From the NCBI GenBank assembly GCA_009697815.1, contig WLRQ01000017.1:1-44971 (forward strand): a stretch of DNA of 44,971 nucleotides, given 5' to 3'. Source of the stretch: Actinomycetota bacterium. Its GTDB lineage: Bacteria; Actinomycetota; Actinomycetes; S36-B12; CAIYMF01. A program made the translations under genes and the position numbers. Numbering within the stretch: the stretch's first letter is position 1; each line of letters opens with the position of its first letter. The notes below the pieces were generated by a model that was not told the DNA's origin, made no database searches, and saw nothing but the letters and a program-made list of their open reading frames with translations. Below are positions 19,978 through 25,451 of the stretch, piece after piece.

Positions 19978-20832
19978 ATGGGCGGCGTGGCCACCCCGAC
20001 ACTGATCACCGTCGCCCCGACGGGGGCCGAGACGGCGAAGGCGGATGCCCCCGGACTCCCCGTCACGCTCGATGAACTGGTCGAAGCCGCGAAGGCGTGC
20101 GAGGCGTCCGGTGCCGCTCTGATCCACCTTCATATTCGCGATGCCCAGGCTCGTCCCACCCTCGAGCCGGGATTACTGGCCGCGAGCGTCGCCGCGGTCC
20201 GAGAGGCCACGGACCTTGTGGTCCAGCTGTCCACCGGCGGTGCGGTCACTGATCCCTACGATGCCCGACTGGCGGTCCTCGACGCCCTCCCTGATTCCTG
20301 CTCCCTCACCTGTGGCACGGTCAATTTCGGTCCCGACGTGTTCATGAACCCGTGGGGCTTCATCGTTGAGCTCTTCCGGCGCAGCCATCAACTGGAGATC
20401 GTTCCCGAGTTCGAGCTCTTCGATCTTGGCCACGTGGCGACCTTGCGACGCTTGCTGGAATCCGAGGGGCTGCCGTTCGGCGGGCAGATCCATTGTGACC
20501 TCGTCCTAGGGGTCCCTGGGGGCGCTCCCGGGACGGCGGAGTCACTCCTGGCCATGGTCGCGATGCTGCCCCAGGGCGCGTCCTGGTCTGCCACGGGTGT
20601 CGGGCGCACGACCCTCCCGGTGGCCTTGGCGGCGCTCTCCTCGGGCGGGCACCTGCGGGTCGGGATGGAGGACACCTTGACGTTCTCGCCGGGGCGTCCC
20701 GTGCGTGACAACGCCGAACTCGTCGCACGGGCCGCTAGTCTCGCCACGTTGGCACTGCGACCTCCGATGACGACCGGTGAGGCGCGGGCGCTTCTCAATG
20801 TCAAAGACAGGCGAAACGGAGCGGATGGATGA
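19978..20832 (+). CDS. BKACE-family beta-keto acid cleavage enzyme (DUF849)
   Basis: 284 residues from ATG 19978; a GTG at 19987 is also possible. BKACE enzymes are zinc-dependent and condense a beta-keto acid with acetyl-CoA, releasing acetoacetate and a CoA ester; 3-keto-5-aminohexanoate is the founding substrate. Metal ligands and loops are visible: LIHLHIRD (His pair), CGTVNFG, PEFELFDLGH, and ATGVGRTTLPV. The specific substrate cannot be told. Its stop overlaps the rsiG ATG by four bases, so the two are translationally coupled. Confidence 0.88.
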   Translation: MGGVATPTLITVAPTGAETAKADAPGLPVTLDELVEAAKACEASGAALIHLHIRDAQARPTLEPGLLAASVAAVREATDLVVQLSTGGAVTDPYDARLAVLDALPDSCSLTCGTVNFGPDVFMNPWGFIVELFRRSHQLEIVPEFELFDLGHVATLRRLLESEGLPFGGQIHCDLVLGVPGGAPGTAESLLAMVAMLPQGASWSATGVGRTTLPVALAALSSGGHLRVGMEDTLTFSPGRPVRDNAELVARAASLATLALRPPMTTGEARALLNVKDRRNGADG

Positions 20833-21389
20833 CCAGGCCGATGACCGGAGGTCGACGTCGAGTCGACCTCGTGCTCTCTGCCGACTTCCTCTTCGGGCTG
20901 AGCGAGCTTTCCCTCGCAGACCTTCGGGAACGCCGTCGCGAGGCAGAGCAGGAGGAGGCCGACCTGTCCTACCTTCGGCGAATCCTGCACGGGCGCATCG
21001 ATATCGTCGAGGCCGAACTTTCGCGCCGCGACCCGGACTCGGGCGCGGGAGCGGTCGTCGACGATCTCGGCCGTGTGCTGGGCGACGAGCAGCGCAGTGT
21101 CCACGGCCTCGGGCGGCACACGACCGTGGAGCCCTCTCGAGTTGATGAGCATCGTCGCGAGGTCGAACAGGTCGTCGCGGATGCGATCACGTCCGACGTC
21201 GAGCGGCGCAGCGAGGACGATCTCCGGCTCGCCCTCATCCGACTCCGTCAGCACGAGGCCGAGGTCTCCGAGGTTCGACGCGCGGTCCAAGCCGCGATGG
21301 ACACCCTCTCCGCCGAACTCACCTCCCGCTACCGCACGGGCACCGCCACCATCGACCACCTCTTGGCCCCCGACCTCAACCGCCCCTAA
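20829..21389 (+). CDS. rsiG: RsiG-type anti-sigma factor with two c-di-GMP motifs
   Basis: 186 residues. In Streptomyces RsiG binds and holds the sporulation/flagellar-type sigma factor WhiG only when loaded with c-di-GMP. The signature E-x3-S-x2-R-x3-Q-x3-D occurs twice on two helices exactly 100 residues apart: E143, S147, R150, Q154, D158 is complete; E43, S47, R50, H54, D58 has His instead of Gln. The linker (about 68-130) is polar. The start overlaps the BKACE stop by four bases. No whiG is in the window. Identification is from the motifs, which are very specific. Confidence 0.87.
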   Translation: MTRPMTGGRRRVDLVLSADFLFGLSELSLADLRERRREAEQEEADLSYLRRILHGRIDIVEAELSRRDPDSGAGAVVDDLGRVLGDEQRSVHGLGRHTTVEPSRVDEHRREVEQVVADAITSDVERRSEDDLRLALIRLRQHEAEVSEVRRAVQAAMDTLSAELTSRYRTGTATIDHLLAPDLNRP

Positions 21390-21665: not shown

Positions 21666-22043
21666 ATGTCAAAGTCCTCCCCGGTGACCCCCACTCCTGG
21701 TGGGGACGTTTTTGACGTGCTCGACCTTGCCGCCTGTTGCGCGCCCATTCGTCGAGAACCGTTGGACCCCGCGGATGCCCGGGTGTTGGCGGAGGCCTTC
21801 AGGGCCCTCGCTGACCCGGTCAGGCTCCAGCTCCTGAACCTCATCGCCACATCCGCTGCGGGGGAGGTTTGTGCCTGCGACCTCGTTGAACCAGTCGGCA
21901 AGAGTCAGCCCACGGTGAGCCATCACCTCAAAGTCTTGCGCGAAGCGGGGCTCGTCGAAGCAGACAAGCGGGGCACGTGGGTGTGGTACTCCGTCGTCCC
22001 TCACCGCCTCGATGAGTTGCGGCGCGTTCTCGCGCGTCGATAG
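21666..22043 (+). CDS. arsR: Arsenic-responsive ArsR-family repressor
   Basis: 125 residues. Winged-helix SmtB/ArsR protein: FRALADPVRLQLLNLIA, recognition region GKSQPTVSHHLKVLREAGLV, and wing DKRGTWVWYSV. Likely As(III) ligands are the adjacent pair C24-C25 (LAACCAPI) with C59/C61 in EVCACDLVE, the arrangement of corynebacterial ArsR rather than plasmid-type ArsR. It heads arsR-arsC-acr3 and probably represses its own promoter at 21614-21659. Confidence 0.94.
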   Translation: MSKSSPVTPTPGGDVFDVLDLAACCAPIRREPLDPADARVLAEAFRALADPVRLQLLNLIATSAAGEVCACDLVEPVGKSQPTVSHHLKVLREAGLVEADKRGTWVWYSVVPHRLDELRRVLARR

Positions 22044-22103
22044 CGCGCAGACCCACACACCGACCTCGTCACCTACAACCAAGTTCTGGGAGCCTGAATC
22101 ACC

Positions 22104-22511
22104 ATGAGTCACAAGACTTCCGTCCTGTTCGTATGCATTCACAATGCTGGCCGTTCGCAGATGGCCGCGGCATATCTCACCCACCTTGCAGGTGACCGTA
22201 TCGAGGTTCGTTCGGCCGGATCAGCGCCCGCAGAGTCGATCAACGCGGCAGTCGTCGAGGCCATGGCGGAGGAGGGCATCGACATCTCCGCCGAGACGCC
22301 GAAGGTGCTCACCACCGAGGCTGTCGAAGTCTCCGACGTGGTCATCACGATGGGCTGCGGCGACGTGTGCCCGTTCTTCCCGGGCAAGCGTTACGAAGAC
22401 TGGCGACTGGACGATCCAGCCGGGCAGGGTGTCGCGTCGGTGCGCCCGATTCGCGATGAAATCCGTCGCCGCATCGAAGAACTGATCGCCGACATCGCCC
22501 CCGTCGCATGA
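22104..22511 (+). CDS. arsC: Arsenate reductase (low-molecular-weight phosphatase family)
   Basis: 135 residues. It reduces arsenate to arsenite, the form exported by Acr3. The P-loop is VCIHNAGRSQMA with nucleophile C11; MGCGDVCPFFPGKRYEDW holds C85 and C89, and DDPAGQ carries the general acid Asp. This is the actinobacterial type; whether it recycles through mycothiol/mycoredoxin or thioredoxin is not decided by sequence, though mycothiol genes are present. GGGAG lies ahead of the ATG. Sixty bases behind arsR. Confidence 0.94.
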   Translation: MSHKTSVLFVCIHNAGRSQMAAAYLTHLAGDRIEVRSAGSAPAESINAAVVEAMAEEGIDISAETPKVLTTEAVEVSDVVITMGCGDVCPFFPGKRYEDWRLDDPAGQGVASVRPIRDEIRRRIEELIADIAPVA

Positions 22512-22542
22512 TCGCCACTCTCCTCGCGCCTGGTGAGGCGAC

Positions 22543-23649
22543 ATGAGCGACGCACCTGGTCCTCAGATGCCGAAGTCGCGCGAGGAAGCCGTGCTCGCCC
22601 GGCTCTCGCTGCTCGACCGCTTCCTTCCCGTATGGATCCTGCTTGCGATGGCGTTGGGGCTGCTCCTTGGCCGCCTAGTTCCTTCGGTTCAGTCGGCGTT
22701 GGATTCTGTGAAGGTCGGACAAACGTCACTGCCCATCGCGCTCGGCCTCCTCCTCATGATGTACCCCGTATTGGCCAAGGTTCGCTACGAGGAAATGGGC
22801 CACGTCACCGGAGATCGACGGTTGCTGTGGCTCTCGCTGCTGCTCAACTGGATCATCGGGCCCGCGCTCATGTTCACGCTGGCGTGGGTTTTCCTCGCCG
22901 ATCAGCCTGCGTTCAGAACTGGGTTGATCGTCATCGGACTGGCCCGATGCATCGCGATGGTGTTGATCTGGAACGACCTCGCGCGGGGCGATGGCGAGGC
23001 AGCCGCCCTGCTCGTCGCGATGAACTCGTTGTTCCAGATCGCGGCCTATGCGTTGCTTGGGACCTTCTACCTGAGGATCCTTCCTGGATGGCTGGGACTA
23101 AGCACCCAGGACGTCGAGTTCTCGACCTGGGACATCACCAAGGCCGTCGTGATCTTCCTGGGGATCCCACTCGTTGCGGGCTACGTCACACGCCGGATCG
23201 GGATTCGAACCAGGGGCCGGCAGTGGTACGAGCAACGGTTCTTGCCTCGGATCGGCCCGTTCGCGCTTTACGGCCTGCTCTTCACGATCGTGGTGATGTT
23301 TGCGCTTCAGGGTGATGCGATCACGTCCGACCCAAGTGCGGTTGCCCGCATCGCACTTCCACTTCTCGCGTATTTCGCCGTGATGTGGGGAGTGTCGTTC
23401 TTCTTGGGTGCACGAGCTCGTCTGGGATACCCGAAGACGGCGACGCTGGCCTTCACAGCGGCGGGCAACAATTTTGAGTTGGCGATCGCGGTGAGTATCG
23501 GAGTGTGGGGTGTCACGTCGGGGCAGGCGTTGGCAGGCGTGATCGGTCCCCTGATCGAGGTTCCGGCCCTTGTCGCTCTGGTCTACGTGTCGCTCTGGCT
23601 CAGGCGTCGCCTGGAGCGGGGGCGGGTGCTCGACGCCTCGGCTGCATGA
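22543..23649 (+). CDS. acr3: Arsenite efflux transporter Acr3
   Basis: 368 residues with about ten hydrophobic segments, as in the Acr3/BART superfamily. The essential Cys is in GLARCIAMVLIWNDLARGD (C136, fourth membrane segment), and the conserved TAAGNNFELAIAV loop is present near residue 305-315. It exports arsenite using the proton gradient. Last gene of the ars operon; a stem-loop in the right inverted repeat follows 14 bases after the stop. Confidence 0.95.
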   Translation: MSDAPGPQMPKSREEAVLARLSLLDRFLPVWILLAMALGLLLGRLVPSVQSALDSVKVGQTSLPIALGLLLMMYPVLAKVRYEEMGHVTGDRRLLWLSLLLNWIIGPALMFTLAWVFLADQPAFRTGLIVIGLARCIAMVLIWNDLARGDGEAAALLVAMNSLFQIAAYALLGTFYLRILPGWLGLSTQDVEFSTWDITKAVVIFLGIPLVAGYVTRRIGIRTRGRQWYEQRFLPRIGPFALYGLLFTIVVMFALQGDAITSDPSAVARIALPLLAYFAVMWGVSFFLGARARLGYPKTATLAFTAAGNNFELAIAVSIGVWGVTSGQALAGVIGPLIEVPALVALVYVSLWLRRRLERGRVLDASAA

Positions 23650-23696: not shown

Positions 23697-23720
23697 GGAA
23701 TGGGGTGGGTGCTTGCTGGG

Positions 23721-23752
23721 CGCTTGCTTTAGCAAGCGGTGGGGGTCATGCT
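23721..23752 (+). promoter_or_regulatory. Promoter and palindromic operator of the XRE gene
   Basis: A perfect palindrome CGCTTGC-TTTA-GCAAGCG (23721-23738) overlaps the -35 TTGCTT (23724-23729). A 17-base spacer leads to -10 CATGCT (23747-23752), six bases before ATG 23759. An extra GCTTGC half-site is at 23711. The layout suggests control by a dimeric HTH protein, most simply autoregulation by the gene it serves (inference). Confidence 0.65.
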
Positions 23753-23758
23753 GGGGGT

Positions 23759-24211
23759 ATGGCTGCGATCGATGTTCATACGCTCGGGGAGTTCATCCGC
23801 GAGCAGCGCCAATCGGCGGAGGTCTCGGTTCGCCAACTGGCCAAGAGGGCAGGGGTCTCCAACCCCTACCTCTCGCAGGTGGAGAGAGGCTTGAAGAAGC
23901 CCAGCGCGGAGATTCTCGGGCAGATCGCCTCGGCGCTGAGGATCTCGGTCGAGAGCTTGTACGTACGTGCCGGCCTTCTCCAGCCGAAAATCGGCGATGC
24001 GCTGGTTACTGAGGCGATCGCGGCCGACCAGACGCTCTCGGAGCGTCAGCGCCAAGCTCTCCTGCATGTGTATTCGGCGTTCCAGGCCGAAAACGTCGCC
24101 GCGGCCTCGATGGCGGAGCCTGTCGATGCAGACGCAACCGTCGGACCCACCGGAGGCCGCCTGGCTGCGGCCGCCAAGGATTCCGACACAACCGTGAAGG
24201 ACATCTCATGA
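23759..24211 (+). CDS. XRE-family regulator (Rv0474/MLDSR-like)
   Basis: 150 residues from ATG 23759, leaderless. The helix-turn-helix is VRQLAKRAGVSNPYLSQVERG at about 27-47 (key residues S-N-P-Y-L-S-Q-V-E-R), followed by KPSAEILGQIASALRIS. The C-terminal tail is acidic and unstructured. In mycobacteria (Rv0474) and Rhodococcus (MLDSR) the same type of regulator lies directly before the gene for HbhA/MLDS, and here it overlaps the repeat protein gene by four bases (ATGA). It probably senses a state of lipid storage or surface, which is inference from those relatives. Confidence 0.88.
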   Translation: MAAIDVHTLGEFIREQRQSAEVSVRQLAKRAGVSNPYLSQVERGLKKPSAEILGQIASALRISVESLYVRAGLLQPKIGDALVTEAIAADQTLSERQRQALLHVYSAFQAENVAAASMAEPVDADATVGPTGGRLAAAAKDSDTTVKDIS

Positions 24212-25098
24212 GCGAGAACAGCACACCCGAGAAGGCCTTGGACACTGAGGCAATGTCGGACGCGGCGCCGCATGACGTGGAGGCGGTCACGGAGGCGACG
24301 GCTCCCAAGGCGACCACGGCACCCAAGAGAACGAAGGCGACCACGGCACCCAAGAGAACGAAGGCGACCACGGCGAGTAAGTCCGCCGAGTCTGCCCGGC
24401 AGGCCCAGCCTCTCCCGCGCATCCGTGAGGCCTCCTCCGAGGAGACGCGACAGCTCGAGGTCCCTGTGGCGCGGACGCGACTGGTTCTCACCGACATCCC
24501 GGACTCGGCGGCGCTGCGACGTCGAGTCGAAGGACAGATTGCCGTCACGACCAACGCGGTCGAGGCCGTGGTGACCCCCCTGGTCGAGAACGTGCGAGAG
24601 CTCACCGCGGAGCGCCTCCACGCGGTCGAGGCCGTGGTGACCCCCCTGGTCGAGAACGTGCGAGAGCTCGCTGCAGAGCGCCTACACGTGGCCGATGCTG
24701 CGCTTGCCCCGTACCGCAGTCGTGTGACGTCCCGCGCGGCCGAGGCGCTGAACGTGGTCGAGGTCGCGCTCGCTCCGTACCGCAGTCGTGTGGCCACTCG
24801 CACGTCTCAGGGCCGCCACGCAATCGAGGTTGCCGTAGCCCCGCTGCTCACCTCCATGGCCGAGATGACATCGGGGAGCCGTCAGACTGCCGGTGCGATG
24901 GTGACGCCGTTGGTGGCCTCCATAGGAGCCGTCGCGACGCATGGGCGCCACAGCGCCGAGGCCGCTGTGCTCGACATCAAGGCCCGCGCACGTGAGCGTC
25001 GCCGGGTCGCGTCCGAGACGATCGCACCTGTGGCGAGCGAACTGCGGATGCGCGCGGACGTCGCGGTCGCCCGGGTTCGATCGGCCGTCAACCGCTAA
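24208..25098 (+). CDS. 22-residue-repeat amphipathic protein (HbhA/MLDS positional homologue)
   Basis: 296 residues, no signal peptide and no membrane helix. Residues 31-58 are an Ala/Thr/Pro/Lys repeat (ATTAPKRTK twice). Residues 117-248 are six tandem 22-residue helical repeats, each with Pro at position 8 (P124, P146, P168, P190, P212, P234), then two degenerate copies to residue 292. Proline-punctuated 22-mers are the pattern of apolipoprotein A amphipathic helices. Its place between an XRE gene and DUF2516 is that of HbhA (heparin-binding hemagglutinin) and Rhodococcus MLDS, a lipid-droplet coat protein. The lysine-rich part is N-terminal, not C-terminal as in HbhA. Lipid-surface binding is a good guess, not shown. 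Confidence 0.85.
   Translation: MSENSTPEKALDTEAMSDAAPHDVEAVTEATAPKATTAPKRTKATTAPKRTKATTASKSAESARQAQPLPRIREASSEETRQLEVPVARTRLVLTDIPDSAALRRRVEGQIAVTTNAVEAVVTPLVENVRELTAERLHAVEAVVTPLVENVRELAAERLHVADAALAPYRSRVTSRAAEALNVVEVALAPYRSRVATRTSQGRHAIEVAVAPLLTSMAEMTSGSRQTAGAMVTPLVASIGAVATHGRHSAEAAVLDIKARARERRRVASETIAPVASELRMRADVAVARVRSAVNR
24307..24374 (+). repeat. 27-bp tandem repeat coding for ATTAPKRTK
   Basis: Two identical 27-base units (24307-24333, 24334-24360) and half of a third, inside the lysine-rich N-terminal region. They encode a basic nonapeptide. Confidence 0.9.
24556..24951 (+). repeat. Six tandem 66-bp (22-residue) repeats
   Basis: Copies begin at 24556, 24622, 24688, 24754, 24820 and 24886. 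The first two are nearly identical at DNA level, implying recent duplication; copies three and four also pair (APYRSRV core). The proline codon is at the eighth codon in each. Confidence 0.9.
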
Positions 25099-25151: not shown

Positions 25152-25451
25152 GTGATTTCAGTATCAGGACTCGTGTATCAAGCCGTCTACTGGGCATGCC
25201 TGATCCTGGGGGCGGTCGCGTTGATCGACGCTACCCGCCACCGGGCCGATGCCTACCCTGCGGCAGACCGCAAGACGAAGAAGTTCTGGATCGTCCTGCT
25301 CGGCGGTGGTGCCGCGGCTCAACTCCTGTTCCCCGCCCTGGGTGGAGGCATCCTCTCGATCCTTGGCCTGGCCGGGATCGTGGCTGCGATCGTCTACCTC
25401 GTCGATGTTCGCCGTCGGGTGATCGAGGCTTCGCGCGGCTCGCGCTGGTGA
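25152..25451 (+). CDS. DUF2516 membrane protein
   Basis: 99 residues from GTG. Two or three membrane segments are visible (about 9-26, 47-62, 64-86), with a polar loop HRADAYPAADRKTKKFW between the first two, which is the recognisable part of DUF2516. Function unknown. The mycobacterial counterpart Rv0476 sits behind hbhA, as this one sits behind the 22-mer repeat gene. The stop overlaps the next start by four bases (GTGA). Confidence 0.87.
   Translation: MISVSGLVYQAVYWACLILGAVALIDATRHRADAYPAADRKTKKFWIVLLGGGAAAQLLFPALGGGILSILGLAGIVAAIVYLVDVRRRVIEASRGSRW

Follow-up and report, generated by a model that had tools for sequence, protein, structure and literature searches.

A proline-punctuated repeat protein in the MLDSR-type slot of a Nanopelagicales genome, a candidate lipid-surface protein

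Directly after an XRE-family regulator gene of a Nanopelagicales bacterium stands an open reading frame for a protein of 296 residues (P0001, here called X; 24208..25098), in which repeat analysis finds 22-residue units punctuated by proline. The reading that we favour, with moderate confidence, is that an MLDSR-type operon has X as its output, and that this protein is cytoplasmic and rests its proline-kinked helix on lipid, neutral-lipid droplets being the likeliest surface. We read X as a lipid-surface product because of the slot that its gene occupies, its 4-bp overlap with the regulator gene, the operator sequence in front of both, the repeats, the match to an apolipoprotein profile, and the presence of a neutral-lipid synthase gene in the same genome. 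The sequence-only reading had also taken X for a coat of a lipid surface, which these observations support indirectly.

The slot and its operator

The window, by which we mean the whole stretch of 44,971 nucleotides that was analysed, is an entire contig of a 2.66-Mb genome (93% complete; order Nanopelagicales), and the genes for the regulator, X, and the DUF2516 protein all lie on its forward strand. The XRE-family regulator (23759..24211; 150 residues) stands in the position of MLDSR. It matches HTH_3 at 49.9 bits, is 49-68% identical to 11 homologues from the order, and is matched by an orthologue profile over 125 of 127 positions; the alignment places its start better at 23759 than at the mechanical open reading frame start, 23705. 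A profile search finds named relatives of this regulator across Actinobacteria. Its stop at 24211 overlaps the ATG of X (24208) by 4 bp, as also happens in relatives such as L047, L055, L056, L083, L107, and L110, and, going by the mechanical start, in 13 of the 66 named loci for which an X frame was chosen.

Downstream of X follows a DUF2516 gene (25152..25451; 95.5 bits against a cut-off of 30.6), a family on which our literature search found nothing. The sequence-only reading had placed X in the slot between XRE and DUF2516 that is known from HbhA and MLDS, and the gene order of the window is indeed this one. Mycobacterial HbhA shares the slot, as seen in two loci that are HbhA-like by layout (L162 and L179). 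The MLDS/MLDSR operon of Rhodococcus jostii RHA1 (ro02104/ro02105) resembles the window in having the XRE gene directly upstream, the same kind of operator, and a product with a basic tract and a long helix. In our search with the XRE profile, DUF2516 lies downstream on the same strand in 69 of the best 80 of 592 named loci, on the other strand in 1, and is missing from 10; the X frame was chosen by composition, a choice that can err, in 66 of those 69.

A perfect 7+2+7 palindrome, GCTTGCTTTAGCAAGC (23722..23737), begins 37 bp before the XRE start and is the predicted, MLDSR-box-like operator of the regulator. Inspection also turns up a degenerate half-site, TGCTTGCTGG (23710..23719); by eye, many genera of the order have a second box about 22 bp upstream, of which the window keeps the half-site only. 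The palindrome precedes all 31 XRE orthologues examined in the order. Written as the pattern GCTTGCWNNWGCAAGC, it is found at 0-1 mismatch in 30 of 30 XRE upstream regions (shuffles, 0.000 of 30), at 36-38 bp from the XRE start in 29 of them and at 27 bp in L056. At one mismatch or fewer, the palindrome at 23722 is the sole site in the 2.66-Mb assembly, and a backward-read control gave 6 per strand. These 30 upstream regions are those of the window and 29 further loci: XRE matches occurred in 31 of 60 loci, from which we left out L061 (50 bits, not an HTH-bearing orthologue) and L090 (start motif unmatched); on recheck L090 does have the palindrome, exact and 37 bp ahead of the probable start.

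Since these upstream regions were themselves the source of the pattern GCTTGCWNNWGCAAGC, it is the published Rhodococcus box, GNT(T/A)GCTNNTGCTANC, that provides an independent test. The window palindrome has 2 mismatches to this box, which is found within 2 mismatches in 30 of 30 upstream regions of the order (shuffles, 0.38 of 30). Across the whole window the published pattern, at 2 mismatches, matches 5 times (1.67 expected), 2 of these being the palindrome on both strands, so it is the position of the palindrome that counts. By script, a box at 0-2 mismatches precedes XRE in 73 of the best 80 of 592 named loci, the order's own included, and two loci with a misplaced start (L149 and L165) have it as well. 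Five Frankia loci among these 80 (L119, L124, L126, L129, and L137) have no box, and their stretches no DUF2516; the operon wiring may have been lost there.

Judged from its sequence, the window locus has an MLDSR-type regulatory layout. In the Rhodococcus work, MLDSR is described as binding such boxes, as regulating its own operon in either direction depending on dose, and as being sequestered by droplets (PMC5504291). By analogy, the same wiring would hold at the window locus: XRE would bind the palindrome before its own gene, and would so set the levels of both XRE and X by autoregulation.

One locus of family f2 offers a side observation (L061, 3012-3467; genome G017). Its open reading frame before DUF2516 keeps the C-terminal half of XRE (the ITDHQRRVLLGIYATFQDEN part) and has no helix-turn-helix, with a helix-like stretch at the front in its place; an operator-like palindrome was not found in this locus, where the best site has 3 mismatches. 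This frame may be a regulator cut down to its non-DNA-binding part.

Repeats, helix, and likeness to apolipoproteins

X opens with a disordered arm that contains a basic tract, residues 33-62 (24304..24393), where the nonapeptide KATTAPKRT is repeated and the DNA holds a 27-bp tandem repeat of 2.5 copies with 100% matches (24307-24374). Six 22-residue units occupy residues 117-248 (24556..24951), as established by self-match and base comparison, and a C-terminal helix, drawn from profile-level alignment with the other slot proteins of the order, fills residues 249-296 (24952..25095). The six in-register 22-mers that had been read from the sequence, each with proline at position 8 (P124, P146, P168, P190, P212, and P234), are all exact, as are their frame and coordinates. 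Within residues 101-296, the top self-match among lags 5-79 is at lag 22 (0.356); over residues 117-248 the lag-22 self-match is 0.482, a value that 0 of 20,000 shuffles reach, and the same 0 of 20,000 is obtained without the near-identical unit 1 (units 2-6) or with units 3-6 alone.

The units differ in age. Units 1 (24556-24621) and 2 (24622-24687) share 62 of 66 bases, the 4 differences changing 1 amino acid; between units 3 and 4, 47 of 66 bases agree (19 differences), and the remaining pairs share 27-38 of 66, which is why we take one duplication to be recent and the rest to be old. The 4 differences between units 1 and 2 make it unlikely that an assembly error produced the near-identical pair. 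The earlier proposal of fresh repeat duplication accordingly stands for units 1-2 and for the N-terminal 27-bp repeats, and falls for the other units.

In an AlphaFold model of X made from a two-row alignment, the arm is disordered as far as residue 99, and one helix follows (residues 100-295), with a mean pLDDT of 61-78 in 10-residue blocks and a pTM of 0.22. A relative with 11-residue repeats, folded alone, gives a helix at residues 63-211 and a pLDDT of at least 90 at 98 of 213 residues. Foldseek with the X model returned 0 matches in the PDB, a single long helix with a pTM of 0.22 being a poor query. The maximum 19-residue Kyte-Doolittle mean of X is 1.24, and by this measure of hydropathy we agree with the earlier statement that X has no signal and no membrane helix.

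The arm deserves attention of its own. Its basic tract is weak in X, with 6 Lys and a net charge of +7 over residues 31-62; the first 82 residues have a net charge of +1, against +10 to +21 in seven relatives; and a C-terminal Lys/Ala/Pro-rich tract is absent, residues 63-296 holding 1 Lys. It is on this arm that an unlikely alternative turns, namely that X is a nucleoid protein whose arm binds DNA in the manner of an H1 histone tail, the helix being a spacer or self-association stalk with no role at lipid. The strongly basic arms of the seven relatives would suit such a protein, the L049 protein matches the H1-like family HC2 (1.7e-8, 35.2 bits, cut-off 40; L054 and L110 weakly), and MLDS itself is reported to bind and tether DNA by its basic tail, a C-terminal Lys-rich region, and to come from an autoregulated operon (PMC5504291). 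However, the arm of the window protein is nearly neutral, the HC2 profile has no match in P0001, a stalk needs no 22- or 11-residue proline-punctuated helix, and XRE co-occurs with WS/DGAT. In the lipid-surface reading that we prefer, the long helix (residues 100-295) would lie on the lipid, most likely on triacylglycerol or wax ester droplets, and the disordered basic arm, probably a weak one in this species, would face the cytoplasm and could touch DNA or acidic partners.

A resemblance to apolipoproteins had been proposed from the repeats, and the profile search bears it out: PF01442 is the top Pfam match of X (3.7e-11), with 43.5 bits against a curated cut-off of 90. It is also the top Pfam match in four of four 22/11-mer homologues (L049, L054, L055, and L110; 3.0e-13 to 2.3e-7) and in the HbhA-type protein of L162 (1.7e-4), with all matches of the slot proteins tested under the 90-bit cut-off. 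At E up to 1 there was no PF01442 match for the L147, L083, and L152 proteins, and two of two composition-matched shuffles gave nothing. The profile is promiscuous at low scores, 13 of 14 control genomes giving matches below threshold at E up to 10. X also matches ApoA-I in the PDB weakly (0.0052), and its six tandem proline-punctuated 22-mers are themselves a PF01442-type feature.

The amphipathicity of X, examined against the 11/3 helix of apolipoproteins, is modest and differs from test to test. Taken coherently over all the repeats, the moment is reached by 640 of 2000 shuffles on the Eisenberg scale. The local helical moment is reached by 2 of 500 shuffles, and a windowed hydrophobicity peak at 98.5 degrees is present in X, in an ApoA-I segment, and in the 11-mer relative, with 0 of 200 shuffles in each case, the peak having been sought over 85-120 degrees in the observed sequences and over 92-108 in the shuffles. 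These later tests, which employ another scale and local windows, were picked after the first (Eisenberg, coherent) had come out negative; the 98-degree harmonic of X depends on the hydrophobicity scale, and a 22-residue period by itself puts power at 98.2 degrees. In the windowed tests the 11-mer relative is as clearly amphipathic as the ApoA-I segment, and a slot protein with 15-residue units from genus g3 shows no 98-degree peak, its maximum of 119.5 degrees lying at the scan's edge. We also considered whether X is designed chiefly as a heptad coiled coil, and rejected this on the power of 0.82 at 102.9 degrees versus 2.26 at 98.2, a comparison that the 22-residue period partly forces.

X shares its 22-residue proline-punctuated helical units with the exchangeable apolipoproteins A1/A4/E (PF01442), and differs from them in having no secretion signal, a weaker amphipathicity, and a score below the Pfam cut-off; the resemblance is likely convergent. 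Perilipin 4, whose repeats are eukaryotic 33-mers and for which we know of no basic arm, provides a second comparison. The literature on it describes a long repetitive helix that coats oil, with mention of an "11-mer repeat" (PMC5889406), and a weakly hydrophobic helix (PMC8064757). By way of comparison, the weak hydrophobic face of X brings this protein to mind (PMC5889406) more than a classic apolipoprotein. Closer to the slot, a PF01442 match is reported for TadA (LPD06283) of R. opacus PD630, and deletion of an MLDS-like R. opacus protein with such a match is reported to lead to supersized droplets (PMC3902926); for the HbhA coiled coil, an HMM match to apolipoprotein A1/A4/E is described (PMC6176652).

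Kinship with HbhA and MLDS, and the turnover of repeats

HbhA is described as having a short hydrophobic N-terminus, a coiled coil, a linker, and a C-terminal Lys/Ala/Pro domain (PMC6176652), and by eye the canonical slot proteins (Mycobacterium sp. L162 and L179, Kutzneria L145, Saccharothrix L147) likewise have a hydrophobic N-terminal start, long helices, and a Lys-rich C-terminus. X differs from HbhA, as there described (PMC6176652), in having its basic tract at the N-terminus, and from MLDS (PMC5504291) in that its tract is both N-terminal and weak and its helix is made of 22-mers. The sequence-only reading took the Lys-rich tract to have moved to the N-terminus, which presumes descent from HbhA or MLDS. 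By hhalign, the profile of the window's family, f1, aligns with the canonical HbhA-type slot proteins at 4.9%, reversed decoys reaching 2.9-7.4%, whereas the canonical sets align among themselves at 95.6-97.6%; these sets are a hand-picked 31 of the 66 X frames from named loci, Rhodococcus MLDS itself not being among them. On this comparison, simple HbhA orthology of X was rejected. Because an N-terminal tract and a C-terminal helix are how the slot proteins of the order are themselves laid out, and with the tract weak in the window species, the "moved" tract is not supported as stated. As far as sequence can tell, the slot family of the order has no recognisable kinship to HbhA-type slot proteins.

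Two weaker alignments have to be set beside this result. The f1 profile aligns with the mycobacterial-type set at 22.6%, over 31 columns of a different stretch and with no decoy of its own, and an order-wide profile aligns with all canonical proteins at 13.9% over 34 columns, above the decoys run. Both values exceed the reversed decoys run, and a remote kinship with the canonical proteins is thus possible. That X is a true but extremely diverged orthologue of HbhA/TadA/MLDS, with a relocated basic tract, seems improbable to us. Slot, operator, and regulator are all the same, and the weak alignments of f1 and of the order-wide profile with all canonical proteins coincide on the canonical side, at columns 108-138 and 108-141, but the f1 value lies inside its decoys and far from that of the canonical sets, and the 22.6% pair carries the restrictions just given. 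Such an origin would be compatible with the lipid-surface reading, as it concerns descent only. X probably works like MLDS; membership in the same family is not supported by the profile comparison.

Database searches gave little on X. A search of NCBIfam with P0001 returned a single match (E 0.44), no match over the cut-off was obtained for seven further slot proteins (three from the order), and a search of the contigs with P0001 (121 stretches) found no relative. The slot proteins of Nanopelagicales are laid out as a Lys/Ala/Thr arm, a repeat-rich middle, and a C-terminal helix often ending in a VTLVREAVGV-like motif. A profile of the last 45 residues of 20 proteins from other families of the order finds the f1 proteins L056/L110 (1.3e-6), L058 (3.5e-9), and L060 (4.5e-9), and at E up to 1 does not match P0001 or six other proteins of its genus, g1. 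P0001 and L056 match directly (3.7e-6), and a profile of f1 homologues with the window left out matches P0001 at 1.2e-46. The same profile also picks up slot proteins from additional genera, at 2.1e-9 to 4.4e-4 and in several cases with a large composition-bias term, as well as L150, a slot protein from Frankiales, at 1.2e-4. Between the order-wide profile and that of f1, the C-termini align with a probability of 85%, the reversed decoy giving 5.9%. From these matches, P0001 is tied to the slot family of the order via closer relatives, and not directly.

Exact 22-residue proline runs number 6 in the window protein, 5 in L049, 4 in L048 and L055, and 3 in L047, while L052 and L054 are irregular and the sister genus (L056/L110) has mostly 11-residue proline spacing. 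The 22/11-mer form (E <= 1e-8) occurs in 8 of 166 genomes of the order, of which 7 belong to the window's genus (11 genomes) and 1 to the sister genus, g2 (2 genomes); in G008 the XRE gene is cut by the contig end. Genus g3 of f1 (L057 and L059) has 15-residue units with proline, of the VELPTVADVREAVAK kind. Since 22-, 11-, and 15-mers or LPKxE-like units fill the slot across genera, we conclude that the slot is kept while the repeat unit changes; the helix of the family would have been rebuilt, and rapidly so, from different tandem units in different genera.

Two observations can be added here. At the g3 loci (slot proteins at 1491-2141 of L057 and 1493-2131 of L059), DUF2516 is divergent from XRE, and not downstream. 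In other families, short LPKVELPKVE-like units run through the slot proteins of L075, L083, L107, L113, and others, and these we take to be reminiscent of AHNAK/periaxin repeats.

A broader proposal, which we put forward tentatively and consider rather doubtful, is that what defines the droplet-coat slot of Actinobacteria is the regulator together with the operator, and not the protein. Nanopelagicales would then hold an unrelated protein of reversed layout, in which a lipid-binding helix has been re-invented by tandem duplication of 22-, 11-, or 15-residue or LPKxE-like units, including an independent arrival at the 11/22-residue solution of apolipoproteins. If this were true, droplet coats of Actinobacteria could be found via the 16-bp operator and the regulator, even when the coat is unrecognisable by sequence. 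It would also offer a set of naturally varied repeat lengths and copy numbers (within one genus, 3 to 6 units) with which to ask what a droplet-coating helix needs, and would be an instance of apolipoprotein-like repeats emerging in bacteria.

Neutral-lipid genes and neighbouring genes

The window's own genome has one WS/DGAT match (5.9e-79), which speaks to the gene only and not to the lipid. In 99 genomes of the order, WS/DGAT is found over the cut-off in 64 and an XRE orthologue (E <= 1e-20) in 43; 42 of the 43 genomes with XRE have WS/DGAT, versus 22 of the 56 without it. Shared descent confounds this link: in family f7, 28 of 30 genomes have neither gene. With f7 left out, the table reads 42/0 versus 21/6 (p = 0.0025), and the five f6 genomes that have neither all belong to one genus. 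Three of the 11 genomes of the window's genus (G004, G005, and G007) keep WS/DGAT with XRE and X absent. We know of no lipid or droplet experiment in this order, and among the literature matches listed for the order and storage lipids, none names the order.

Granules of polyhydroxyalkanoate (PHA) are also coated by amphipathic helical proteins, and X could in principle be a phasin-like coat of this kind. PF05597 matches the g2 homologue at E 0.27, but PhaC_N has no match in the window's own genome or in any of family f1 (0 of 17 genomes). The identity was rejected as contradicted by the missing PhaC, unless an unrelated PHA synthase exists, and we give it almost no weight.

Somewhat less improbable, though still distinctly unlikely, is that X coats a bilayer (at the plasma membrane, in polar growth or the envelope), perhaps together with the DUF2516 protein, and not a droplet. 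In three loci of family f4 (L063, L071, and L101) the XRE gene is gone and X and DUF2516 are still adjacent, the three g1 genomes named above retain WS/DGAT without X, and an apolipoprotein-like bacterial polar ring protein is reported (PMC8262873). Against this, the slot, the operator, and the co-occurrence with WS/DGAT all favour storage lipid, as in our preferred reading of X as a coat of neutral-lipid droplets.

Some minor observations concern the surroundings of the locus. At 20829-21389 the window encodes an RsiG-like protein (PF22802, 114.7 bits); by eye, proteins resembling it lie near X in the f4 loci L063 and L071, so this may be a recurrent neighbour. Between it and the operator, 21666-23649 holds an ArsR-type regulator (HTH_5), a low-molecular-weight phosphatase family protein, presumably arsenate-reductase-like, and an SBF-family transporter, which we assume to be Acr3, and ends about 70 bp before the palindrome. 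A second DUF2516 match is present in 8 of 99 genomes (G002, G003, G019, G024, G027, G035, G039, and G043), and in L102 and L103 a second DUF2516 lies, by eye, downstream of a carbamoyltransferase-like gene.
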